From Acholeplasmatales bacterium DTU067 (GTDB lineage: Bacteria; Bacillota_I; Bacilli_A; ML615J-28; CAG-698): 42,379 nt of DNA. The notes beneath the pieces were generated by a model, which worked only from the letters and a program-made list of their open reading frames with translations, made no database searches and had not been told where the DNA came from. The stretch's first letter is position 1. Every line of letters begins with the position of its first letter. The stretch lies in NCBI GenBank assembly GCA_001512995.1, contig LFRY01000037.1, positions 2,380 to 44,758 of the forward strand. The letters run 5' to 3'. Position numbers and translations under genes: made by a program. Below, in pieces: positions 39,469-42,379 of the stretch.

Positions 39469-40446
39469 TCAATTATCGGCAAGTTTCCAGACGGTCTTTG
39501 GGGTGTATTTTTCATTCGGTCCGTAAAGATTGCGGTCCGCAAATTCCGGAATGTTGGGAGAATTGGGCACGCCCTGCGTTTCCAGGCAGAGTGCCATGTT
39601 CTTATAACCCCTGATTCCTCCGGCAATCCGATAATCCTCATTAATCATGTTTCCGGCATAAAAGACAACCACATCCTCGGTCGAATGCACTTCCAAACTT
39701 AAACCGGTGAGCGGAGAACGGAGCGTCGCCACATGGCTCATCTCCCCGGCTCTGTTGACCAGGTAGGGATGGTCAAAACCGCCCGCAATTTTCAGTTGCT
39801 CAAAATTAGCATTAATGTCCTGACCGATCGGTTTCATCTTTCGGAAATCAAGGGGTGTGTTTTCGACCAAAGCCGCGCCGTAGGGAATGAAATTCTCATC
39901 GAGCATGAGATAACGGTCGGCATTCAAAAAAAGCTCATGGTTCAATATTGATTTTTCCGGATCCCCGTTCAGGTTGAAATAGGCATGGTTGGTGAGGCTC
40001 AGGATTGTTTTTTTGGTCGGCTCCGCTTCATAAAGCAAATGCAATTCCCTTCCCCGTAGTCTGTAGGTGACGGAAAAAGCAACCGCCCCAGGGAAACCTT
40101 CTTCGCCGTCCTCCGCGGAAGCGCTGAATTTGATCCAATCCTCTCCCACCTCCACGGAATATTCCTTCGCATTGAATCCTTTGAACCCTCCATGCAATTG
40201 GTAGATGCCGTTGATGTTCTTCGCAACCTCATGTCTCTTGCCGTCAAGATAAAAATCCGTGATCCGTCCGGAATGACGACCGATGATGGCATTCATGTAC
40301 CCGGGATTGTTTTTCCGGTAAGTCTCCATGTCTTCGTGACCGACAATGATGTTGATTCCCGTCTTCAAATCAATGAGTTTCACGATGCAGGCCCCAAAGC
40401 TAATAAAATGCGCTTCAAGATGTTCATTTTTTAGTATGTATGTCAT
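39469..40446 (-). CDS. galM: Aldose 1-epimerase (galactose mutarotase)
   Basis: Interconverts beta- and alpha-aldoses, providing alpha-galactose to galactokinase. The ATG at 40446 (MTYILKNEHLEAHFIS) follows AAGGAGAGATAG; the upstream open frame is not used. The 325-aa product has the GalM pattern: FGACIVKLIDL, the substrate Arg in NAIIGRHSGRI, the QLHGGFKGFNAKEY block, SLTNHAYFNLNG with the catalytic His, GFDHPYLV, and the catalytic Glu in CLETQGVPNSPN. It stands alone with its own terminator, away from galK-galT and galE, so the Leloir genes are at three loci. Confidence 0.95.
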   Translation of the reverse strand: MTYILKNEHLEAHFISFGACIVKLIDLKTGINIIVGHEDMETYRKNNPGYMNAIIGRHSGRITDFYLDGKRHEVAKNINGIYQLHGGFKGFNAKEYSVEVGEDWIKFSASAEDGEEGFPGAVAFSVTYRLRGRELHLLYEAEPTKKTILSLTNHAYFNLNGDPEKSILNHELFLNADRYLMLDENFIPYGAALVENTPLDFRKMKPIGQDINANFEQLKIAGGFDHPYLVNRAGEMSHVATLRSPLTGLSLEVHSTEDVVVFYAGNMINEDYRIAGGIRGYKNMALCLETQGVPNSPNIPEFADRNLYGPNEKYTPKTVWKLADN

Positions 40447-40497
40447 TCTATCTCTCCTTAACCTGTAATATCTTAACACATTTTCCTGAAAAATAAA

Positions 40498-40525
40498 AGA
40501 AAAACCGCACTACAAAAAGTGCGGT
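40498..40525 (-). terminator. Terminator of the tRNA-Pro/tRNA-Gly transcript
   Basis: Minus-strand ACCGCAC / GTGCGGT stem with an 8-nt loop followed by five T, 12 nt past the tRNA-Gly 3' end. Confidence 0.85.
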
Positions 40526-40536
40526 CAAATTTCAAT

Positions 40537-40610
40537 TGGAGCAGGTAACGAGAATCGAACTCGCACATTCAGCTTGGAAGGCTGATGTTCTACCATTAAA
40601 CTATACCTGC
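40537..40610 (-). tRNA. tRNA-Gly (TCC anticodon)
   Basis: A 74-nt cloverleaf: acceptor GCAGGTA / TACCTGC, anticodon arm CAGC-CTTCCAA-GCTG giving TCC, T-arm with GTTCGATTC, encoded CCA. It lies 3 nt after tRNA-Pro in the same transcript. Confidence 0.96.
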
Positions 40611-40613
40611 AAA

Positions 40614-40690
40614 TGGTCGGGAAAACAGGATTTGAACCCGCGACTTCTTGGCCCCAAACCAAGCGCTCTACCAAGCTGAGCTATTTCCCG
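40614..40690 (-). tRNA. tRNA-Pro (TGG anticodon)
   Basis: A 77-nt cloverleaf: acceptor CGGGAAA / TTTCCCG with the bacterial Pro C1-G72 pair, anticodon arm CTTGG-TTTGGGG-CCAAG giving TGG, T-arm GGGTTCAAATCC, encoded CCA. First gene of the tRNA-Pro-tRNA-Gly unit. A 14-bp palindrome, ATTCATTAATGAAT, lies in the short leader. Confidence 0.96.
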
Positions 40691-40718
40691 GATTCATTAA
40701 TGAATTCTTTGCTAGTAT

Positions 40719-40747
40719 ATTATACTACAATCAACCTTCCTTGTCAA
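40719..40747 (-). promoter_or_regulatory. Promoter of tRNA-Pro/tRNA-Gly
   Basis: Consensus TTGACA (40742-40747), 17-nt spacer, TATAAT (40719-40724) on the minus strand. Confidence 0.92.
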
Positions 40748-40752
40748 CCGCA

Positions 40753-40796
40753 AAATAAAAAAGCGGATGCCGAAAAACCTAATTTTTCGCCGCCGC
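40753..40796 (-). terminator. Terminator after the signal peptidase gene
   Basis: Minus-strand hairpin GCGG...CGAAAAA / TTTTTCG...CCGC with an internal bulge, followed by six T, overlapping the stop codon. Confidence 0.75.
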
Positions 40797-41366
40797 TCCC
40801 TCAGCATTCTTTTTCGGTTCTTTGAGAATCACCGCCAACAAAATTATCAGAAGCCCGTCCAGAGCCAATAGCAGAAGCATCATCGGATCACGGAACGTTT
40901 CCACAAAATACCCCAAACGGGGAATTCTGAAAGCGACTTTACCGAGGATGTCTTCGGGATTGATTCTTTCGGTCCTCATCCCCTCCTCATCGTACCAAAG
41001 ATCAAAACTGCCTTCTTCCTTCCGGCTGTGGCTCTGCGTTTTATAATAAGCCCCGTCCTCGCCCACATAACCCAAATAATGGACGACATTGATTTCTTCG
41101 ATTTCGCCCGCCTTGTTTTTGACGCGGGCGCGGAAATTGATGATGTCGCCTTCTTTTAGGTTGTCCTTGCGGACGCGGACGATGAAAATGCCGTCCCTGA
41201 CTTTGATTTTTGGTTCCATCGAACCTGTTTGCACAATCGAAAGCGAGTATCCGAAAACGGTTATTTTTTTATCCGGAAAAAACACCGAAACAAAGAAATA
41301 AGCGCCAAAATACAGGATGATGAGCAGGGGAATCAAGGTTTTGAGCGCCTTCAAAACTTTCTTCAA
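40779..41366 (-). CDS. SipW/ER-type signal peptidase I
   Basis: Membrane serine protease of family S26, 195 aa, of the type with a Ser/His rather than a Ser/Lys dyad (SipW, archaeal and eukaryotic SPC). An N-terminal helix (LIPLLIILYFGAYFFVSVFF) is followed by the nucleophile motif VQTGSMEPKIKVRDG. NVVHYLGYV, where the general-base residue is expected, has His in place of Lys. A C-terminal helix (MMLLLLALDGLLIILLAVIL) completes the two-anchor SipW layout. The start is TTG at 41366, directly after the upstream stop, with GGGAGG 8 nt before it. It is co-transcribed with a secreted protein whose signal peptide resembles SipW substrates. Confidence 0.88.
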   Translation of the reverse strand: MKKVLKALKTLIPLLIILYFGAYFFVSVFFPDKKITVFGYSLSIVQTGSMEPKIKVRDGIFIVRVRKDNLKEGDIINFRARVKNKAGEIEEINVVHYLGYVGEDGAYYKTQSHSRKEEGSFDLWYDEEGMRTERINPEDILGKVAFRIPRLGYFVETFRDPMMLLLLALDGLLIILLAVILKEPKKNAEGAAAKN

Positions 41367-42317
41367 TTAGATTTCCTCCCAATATTCTTTGTTGATCACT
41401 TCTTCACCGTTTTCGATGCGAAAGGGAACAACCCCGACAGAGGGCCTTTTCGCCCGAAAATAACGGTAACGGCGGGAGTTAAGCATGCCGTAAATGACCA
41501 CTTCGCCCGAAGAATAATGGTTGTGTCCGAGCCAAAAATTGACGATTTCCTCTCTGATCGGAGAAACCGAGCCGTTTTTTATCTCTTGGAAATACCCTTC
41601 CCCCGCTGTCTCCTCTGAAGGTGCAACCTCGCAATCCCGCAAAGCTTTCCAAAAGCGAATCTCTCCGTTTTCGTCAAAGCTGTAGACGGTTTCCCCTTCT
41701 TCAGCACTCTCCCGCCATTCCGGAATCTCATCCCAAGCCCAAGCGTAAACTCCCGGCGTGTGGCCCGGGTTGACATATTGCCTGGCAACCCAATAACGAG
41801 GATTCCCCTCGGAATCAAATCCATGCTTCACAATGTAGCCTTTCAGATAAACATTCCCAGGCAAAAACCATTCGCTGATCTCAAACCAGGAATAATGGTT
41901 GCCGGGCACCTGGTTGGTGGAGCCTGAATGGAGCGCGAGATAATATAATCCGTCCTTTTTTATCGGCATGGACCTTTGATCGTAGTAATTGGTCGAAACC
42001 CAATCTTCGCTCAGGACATTGACCCCGCTCCAACGATTGTTCCATCCCCACCATTTCTCATCATCGGGAATGCTTTCGTCCAAATCCCAAATCACGACAT
42101 ACAGGCAGTCCTTATATAGGAATTCCAATCCCGCTTTCGGATCGTCAATCCTTCCCACTTCTTCAAGGACAATGTAAATTTTCCAATTGCCTATCTTTAC
42201 ATAGGAACTACAAACAGCCTCAGAAGGAAGCGGGCTTGTCCAATAGGCTTGGGTTTTCGGTAAAGCTAAGAGGGCAAAAACTAGATTAACCAACATGATC
42301 AGCCAATACTTTTTCAT
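41367..42317 (-). CDS. Secreted Trp/Tyr-rich protein, likely SipW-type substrate
   Basis: A 316-aa exported protein of unknown function. The signal peptide is MKKYWLIMLVNLVFALLALP followed by KTQAYWTSPLP. The AYWT segment resembles the AYF(S/T) site that SipW-type peptidases cut in TasA/camelysin-like proteins. The next part (CSSYVKIGNWKIYIVLEE) has the IGNW feature seen after such sites. The mature part is unusually rich in W and Y (DEKWWGWNNRWSG, YAWAWDEIPEW) with apparent beta-sandwich character. AAGGAGG precedes the ATG. The peptidase gene follows with no gap, and an upstream gene end overlaps its ATG, so at least three genes form the operon. Cell-surface or matrix function is inferred. 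Confidence 0.75.
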   Translation of the reverse strand: MKKYWLIMLVNLVFALLALPKTQAYWTSPLPSEAVCSSYVKIGNWKIYIVLEEVGRIDDPKAGLEFLYKDCLYVVIWDLDESIPDDEKWWGWNNRWSGVNVLSEDWVSTNYYDQRSMPIKKDGLYYLALHSGSTNQVPGNHYSWFEISEWFLPGNVYLKGYIVKHGFDSEGNPRYWVARQYVNPGHTPGVYAWAWDEIPEWRESAEEGETVYSFDENGEIRFWKALRDCEVAPSEETAGEGYFQEIKNGSVSPIREEIVNFWLGHNHYSSGEVVIYGMLNSRRYRYFRAKRPSVGVVPFRIENGEEVINKEYWEEI

Positions 42318-42379
42318 GAACCCGCCTCCTTCCTAAGTTGCTTCCTATTCAAAATAATCAATTTAAACAACTTCCACGC
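42314..42379 (-). CDS. C-terminal end of an upstream gene (partial)
   Basis: An open frame enters from the right edge and ends in TGA at 42314-42316, overlapping the next ATG as ATGA. The 21 visible residues include WKLFKLIILNRKQLRKEAGS, a short hydrophobic stretch with a basic tail, as at the end of a membrane protein. The ATGA junction is the main support. Too little is present to name it. Confidence 0.4.
   Translation of the reverse strand, partial: AWKLFKLIILNRKQLRKEAGS

Follow-up and report, generated by a model that had tools for sequence, protein, structure and literature searches.

A conserved SipW-type peptidase-substrate cassette joined to CBM5/12-like arrays in an Acholeplasmatales lineage

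A gene for a SipW-like signal peptidase and a gene for a secreted protein lie directly side by side in Acholeplasmatales bacterium DTU067, where they form a real, conserved peptidase-substrate cassette of the SipW/TasA kind that is joined to CBM5/12-like arrays. The DNA analyzed, a stretch of 42,379 nucleotides referred to as the window, covers most of contig C91 of an assembly of 1.47 Mb in 91 contigs (89.99% complete), and its right end is the exact contig end. At this end the minus strand carries gene B (42317-41367, 316 amino acids) and then gene C (41366-40779, 195 amino acids), which encodes the peptidase. With an upstream gene A, the two are best read as a cassette in which C frees the N termini of A and B, A polymerizes, and B binds polysaccharide, a reading to which we assign a probability of about 0.6.

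Gene C encodes an ER-type signal peptidase

The TTG start codon of C, with GGGAGG upstream of it, stands where both orthologues have their ATG in the alignment. The protein carries Ser-49 (in GSMEP, codon 41220-41222 on the minus strand), His-96 (in VVHYLG, codon 41079-41081, minus strand), and Asp-122 (in FDLW, codon 41001-41003, minus strand) in catalytic-type positions, and these residues are kept in three of three congeneric copies. Because the aligned catalytic positions hold Ser and His, not Lys, C is classified as an ER-type peptidase. The open reading frames and residues thus confirm the Ser/His peptidase, read from a TTG directly after a secreted protein, that was described in the earlier note, and the Ser/Lys processing enzyme that would have spoken against that description is not what C encodes.

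Profile scores were low throughout. C reached 39.7 bits with the SipW equivalog NF046067 (cut-off 190; orthologues 39.5 and 39.1) and 37.2 bits with TIGR02228 (sigpep_I_arch; cut-off 51.85; orthologues 47.7 and 51.4), and the two G099 relatives scored above the TIGR02228 cut-off with 54.4 and 70 bits. The canonical profile TIGR02227 gave 31.4 bits, which is below its cut-off and below the scores with the other two profiles. In Pfam, C matched CBM39 with 18.2 bits (cut-off 25) and Peptidase_S26 with 17.2 bits (cut-off 22.9). An assignment to CBM39 was rejected, since that score, like the one for Peptidase_S26, is below the cut-off and, of these two families, the orthologues match Peptidase_S26 alone. 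A profile search of the Protein Data Bank with C returned Ika8 as best match (E 0.00024), followed by SEC11C (E 0.0097) and SEC11A (E 0.091).

Two canonical signal peptidases above the TIGR02227 cut-off are encoded on other contigs of the same genome (C12 and C33 of G000), so C is an extra enzyme. A peptidase that adjoins substrates with aromatic starts, in a genome that also encodes canonical signal peptidases, is the arrangement of the dedicated peptidases of SipW/TasA-type export.

Cassette organization and conservation

No base separates the TAA of B from the TTG of C; in the congeneric loci the two genes overlap by 4 nt (L035) or are separated by 6 nt (L036). The B-C pair recurs in both of the other genus genomes searched, and the pairing is therefore more than chance. 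The whole cassette A-B-C is present in these two genomes, and the window holds B-C and a fitting end of A. B was found in DUTX01000135.1, an Acholeplasmataceae metagenome-assembled genome (54% identity), and in CALEGD010000024.1, an Acholeplasmatales one (50% identity). When 100 genomes were searched, B matched three, all of the genus. A contig search with B alone found no relative, and a three-row alignment of B found two loci, both congeneric. Adjacency, an AYW-type cleavage region, and a conserved operon all support the pairing of a SipW-like peptidase with a SipW-type substrate, as the earlier note had proposed, and the upstream neighborhood is not an unrelated one, the neighbor in both congeneric genomes being a secreted AYW protein.

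Downstream of C lie two tRNA genes and then further genes, in an order that is the same in L035 and differs in L036; going by sequence, we take the genes beyond the tRNAs to be epimerase-, threonine dehydrogenase-, and KBL-like. A promoter scan of 40400-42379 gave one promoter-like site (2.3 in shuffles), a sigma-70-type match (12/12) at 40719-40747 on the minus strand just 5' of the tRNA-Pro and tRNA-Gly genes. Six terminator-like sites were found in the same region (2.9 in shuffles, SD 1.8). The longest, on the minus strand at 40526-40503, lies just 3' of tRNA-Gly, and the interval from the end of C to the tRNA genes has none on that strand.

The upstream gene

A third gene had been described as overlapping B upstream. 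That overlap is not borne out: the open frame in question comprises only 20 codons plus the overlap at the contig end, where the window stops, and was rejected, and the orthologous loci have a non-overlapping gene A. In both congeneric loci A ends 41 nt before the ATG of B. The window contains a frame, VEVV followed by a stop codon, that ends 45 nt before B in the place matching the end of A, and the last 62 bases of the window fit the end of A. The gene upstream of B is therefore most likely A, non-overlapping and lost beyond the contig end; its likely last codons and stop, placed by position in the two orthologous loci, are at 42363-42377 (minus strand). A was not found elsewhere in the assembly, other contig ends included.

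In the two congeneric relatives A is a small secreted protein of 178 residues (71% identical), in which TFA precedes and YWAN follows the signal cleavage site, with VE(I/V)GTG after that. It had no Pfam match at E 0.001, no match to TasA by sequence, and one non-significant sequence match in the Protein Data Bank. A structural model of A (pLDDT 58) gave no Foldseek match at E 0.001. VIA aligned this weak model with TasA (5of2) at Z 6.0 over 115 residues with an rmsd of 4.1, which is below the trustworthy level, and TasA stood at rank 11 of 50 rows, tied with unrelated beta-sandwiches.

Gene B and its proposed modules

Gene B (41367-42317, minus strand) starts with ATG and encodes a Trp/Tyr-rich secreted protein with 18 Trp and 23 Tyr residues, the two making up 12.8% of the mature part. 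Its N terminus reads MKKYWLIMLVNLVFALLALPKTQAYWTS, followed by KIGNW. The SipW-type signal peptide (42246-42317, minus strand) is expected to be cut after Ala-24, between KTQA and YWT; Ala-24, Trp-26, and Thr-27 are invariant in the three copies, and position 25 is Tyr or Phe. The SipW-type signal profile TIGR04088 (cut-off 19 bits) did not match A or B of the genus even at E 10, and three class relatives scored 14.5-15.4 bits, below the cut-off.

Behind the signal, about five CBM5/12-like modules are proposed, all on the minus strand, with borders drawn by eye and a count that rests partly on reading by eye. Module 1 would comprise residues ~60-92 (42042-42140), with a weak profile match at 67-84, and module 2 residues ~106-147 (41877-42002), with the best profile match, at 122-144. 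Module 3 (residues ~150-198; 41724-41870) has a profile match at 174-193. Module 4 (residues ~201-246; 41580-41717) has its strands in the better part of the structural model (VIA range 198-249), and the window copy gave no match to the module profile here. Module 5 would span residues ~262-316 (41370-41534), with a profile match at 265-276.

B of the window matched nothing in Pfam or NCBIfam at E 1, its orthologues had no PF02839 match at E 10, and B thus falls short of the at least 26.2 bits that PF02839 takes. No sequence match in the Protein Data Bank was found at E 5. The earlier statement that the substrate has no likeness to TasA past its start is supported. The structural model of B has a mean pLDDT of 50, and with such a low-pLDDT model a Foldseek search of the Protein Data Bank returned 390 matches up to E 10 and none at E 0.001, a list that does not bear interpretation. 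With the same poor model VIA gave the chitin deacetylases 3wx7 and 4nyy at Z 5.7 and 5.1 (83 residues, rmsd ~6), and a T4 capsid protein stood above both at 6.8. The matched parts of the two deacetylases are presumably their CBM12 domains.

CBM5/12-like arrays in the class

In other families of the class, operons were found in which small AYW proteins come first, another AYW protein follows that combines an IGxW-like stretch with at least one module, and a SipW-like peptidase comes next. The modules follow the pattern Y..GD.V.Y.G..Y.A....PG....W, their number per array protein is 1 to 11 by profile count, and three of the four array proteins scanned score above the cut-off of Pfam CBM_5_12. 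A Protein Data Bank search with a two-row array alignment returned only All3316 (E 0.021) and chitinase C (E 0.086). Two array proteins used as queries found matches in 23 of 395 class genomes. In 12 of these 23 a peptidase gene on the same strand follows the module protein at a distance of 6-106 nt; the other 11 have no peptidase just after it, in loci with ~1.5 kb or less of downstream DNA.

These pairings bear on whether C is a general second signal peptidase that came to stand beside B by the chance of operon shuffling. ER-type peptidases are indeed common, and C matches 43 of 100 genomes (its own included). Against this, B and C are in contact or nearly so in all three genus loci, the genome already has two canonical enzymes, and module protein and peptidase are paired in the 12 distant genomes, which together make such an origin highly improbable.

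B occupies the same operon slot, with the same start type, as the proteins that score above the CBM_5_12 cut-off. A profile of 89 modules was built from 18 proteins of the 23 genomes; G305, G119, and G373 were left out because they lack a SipW-type start or are cut at a contig end, as were G219 and G141, in which the profile found no module. Mature B of the window scored 15.1 bits with this profile and the L050 copy 14.1 bits, each with none of 5000 shuffles as good, and the L049 copy scored 6.2 bits (29 of 5000). The first, narrower module profile gave 0 (window), 0 (L050), and 217 (L049) of 2000 shuffles, and single-module profile scores of B were low. BLASTP of B against the 18 proteins found G225 with 25% identity over 214 residues at an E of 6e-8 that applies to this small set, part of the alignment lying in the signal. 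Mature B was also compared by hhalign with nine of the 18 proteins: seven exceeded all 60 shuffles, with G225 best (38.4; control maximum, 20.3), and the comparisons with G092 (2 of 60) and G099 (6 of 60) failed. The similarity of B to the CBM5/12 proteins above cut-off thus exceeds that of shuffles, with the L049 copy weaker.

Operon slot and start, profile scores against shuffles, BLASTP, hhalign, and the VIA matches suggest, as their best explanation, that B is a divergent array of the CBM5/12-like kind, with about five modules, and not an orphan. Alternatively, B could be an independent beta-repeat protein that resembles CBM5/12 only through its Trp/Tyr/Gly-rich composition and has a role unrelated to carbohydrate, as the missing Pfam match at E 1, the poor model, and the weak profile score of the L049 copy would allow. 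We consider this improbable, given that the shuffles, which keep composition, never reached the scores of the window and L050 copies, that seven of nine hhalign comparisons lay above every shuffle, and that slot and start are common to B and the recognized CBM_5_12 proteins. As to the new surface system that the earlier note envisaged beyond the window, the operon does continue with AYW protein A in both congeneric genomes, but B appears to be a divergent member of the array family rather than an unrelated new protein.

Peptidase variants in related operons

Several related operons contain unusual peptidases. The peptidase encoded immediately downstream of the CBM array no longer has Ser, His, and Asp at the aligned positions in four genomes, G092, G158, G194, and G073 (L040:9885-10469, L063:685-1395, L065:825-1391, and L048:7337-7912). 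A second peptidase two genes on retains Ser and His in G092 and G073, and the two enzymes could possibly form a pair of active and inactive signal peptidases. A gene of ~200 codons that follows the first peptidase (L040:10493-11128, L065:187-825, L066:2617-3219, and L067:212-814) has a weak peptidase-profile match (E 1.5e-6 to 2e-8) without the paired Ser and His, and may represent one more, degenerate member of the family. The operon is of another kind in two members of the family, G005 and G007 (L046:2002-19001 and L047:1496-11048), where two or three SipW-like peptidases are accompanied by several secreted proteins that start with YAW or FAW and by an open reading frame of very large size that continues past the end of the locus.

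Proposed mechanism

We propose that A-B-C is a SipW-type secretion cassette of three genes. A and B would be exported with signals that place two aromatic residues right after the cut. Ordinary Ser/Lys signal peptidases would process such signals badly, and the dedicated Ser/His enzyme C would remove them. LepB is hindered by an aromatic residue at P2', and SipW processes TasA, which has Phe in this position (PMC10269814). With Tyr or Phe and then Trp after the expected cut in A and B, the canonical enzymes should do poorly on both, and C should be needed.

Once cleaved, A is likely to be the polymer-forming subunit, in the manner of TasA, and B most likely a minor subunit that ties the A polymer to polysaccharide and so would anchor the matrix. 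Ahead of its modules B has a short N-terminal segment (YWT...IGNW) that appears to resemble the mature N terminus of A. Subunits of TasA are joined through a donor strand formed by the residues that directly follow the cleavage site, and TapA has this strand in common with TasA (PMC9674648). The mature N termini of A and B were compared in 12 pairs, with the first two residues left out, and in eight of these at most 100 of 2000 shuffles did as well; the likeness in the two genus pairs is modest (88 and 82 of 2000 shuffles). The pairs came from G001, G002, and 10 of the 12 genomes in which a peptidase gene closely follows the module protein; G065 (A not picked by the ORF caller) and G344 (no AYW open reading frame upstream in the locus) were left out. 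Cleavage by C, polymerization of A, and binding by B are steps we infer, and a fibre with an anchor is a plausible reading of the cassette.

B could instead be an adhesin in its own right, directed at chitin or some other polysaccharide outside the cell, needing C and joining no polymer of A, with A a separate secreted protein that shares C by chance. The CBM5/12 family, which the modules of B resemble, is best known for chitin binding. The three-module protein of G344 has its peptidase 6 nt on and no AYW open reading frame seen upstream in the locus, and GH18 proteins are present in all three genus genomes. However, six distant class genomes among 100 relatives searched with A have both an A match and a module protein, and in six of six the A match lies less than 100 nt upstream of the module protein, the order also found in the genus. 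In addition, four of ten cassette-bearing genomes have no GH18 match, although GH18 matches say little either way. An adhesin independent of A is therefore rated as somewhat unlikely, and a B that anchors the A polymer is preferred.

Ligand of B

GH18 proteins were found in six of the ten cassette-bearing genomes examined, those of the genus included, and no GH18 match was obtained in the other four, all of which have a module protein beside the peptidase. Chitin feeding is thus not a general explanation, with the reservation that GH18 also matches in control genomes for other reasons and so carries little weight. The genus genomes have PF00905 transpeptidases, and eight of ten class genomes with module proteins that were examined gave no PF00905 match. 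The nearly complete genomes with AYW/CBM-module proteins and no such match are G065, G073, G084, G087, G092, G100, G147, and G158. Multiple losses of peptidoglycan in the class have been reported from 2650 genomes (PMC10868615, available part). The cells' own peptidoglycan is therefore unlikely to be the general ligand of the module proteins. A matrix polysaccharide of the cell's own is the favored target of B, by elimination only.

A more far-reaching version is that B is a carbohydrate-binding counterpart of TapA, whose N-terminal YW...IGxW, freed by C, inserts into A as a donor strand, giving A fibres with a CBM array at the base or tip. In relatives without penicillin-binding transpeptidases, the cassette would then be a polysaccharide-tethered protein coat that replaces the wall, processed in some by a signal peptidase beside catalytically dead partners. 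This proposal is speculative and, taken as a whole, unlikely.

Comparison with known systems

Work on SipW systems in Bacillus and Clostridium treats them as producers of matrix fibres. The conserved gene order ties the SipW type to CBM-like arrays in lineages around Acholeplasmatales, including genomes in which no penicillin-binding transpeptidase was found. It also gives a TasA-like protein a possible partner that binds sugars and places a Trp/Tyr-rich orphan in a family, and the cassette suggests a surface layer that grips polysaccharides, a testable idea for the surface of such uncultured cells. A literature search of titles and the starts of abstracts, with most subscription papers outside its reach, returned no description of a SipW peptidase with CBM arrays.

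The module pattern is that of CBM family 5/12 (PF02839), and class relatives of B score above its cut-off. Unlike typical members, the arrays stand behind a SipW-type signal and are not attached to enzymes, and B itself is below Pfam detection.

In Clostridium perfringens, the accessible text of PMC7395162 describes an operon, sipW-bsaABCRSD, that likewise combines a SipW-like peptidase with further secreted proteins, and there the peptidase is needed for export of a polymer former that is not TasA. The operon differs from A-B-C in having the peptidase first, a two-component system within it, and a sortase gene adjacent, and CBM arrays are not mentioned in that portion of the article.

The closest parallels are with tapA-sipW-tasA of Bacillus subtilis, in which, as far as the available parts of PMC9674648 and PMC10269814 go, an ER-type peptidase also stands beside secreted proteins with an aromatic P2' residue and the second substrate has an N-terminal segment in common with the main one. 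The weak model of A gives TasA at Z 6.0 in VIA, a score too low to trust. A-B-C differs from tapA-sipW-tasA in that the SipW equivalog score of C falls far short of the cut-off, no Pfam family matches A at E 0.001, the peptidase comes last in the order, and the place of TapA would be taken by a CBM5/12-like array.
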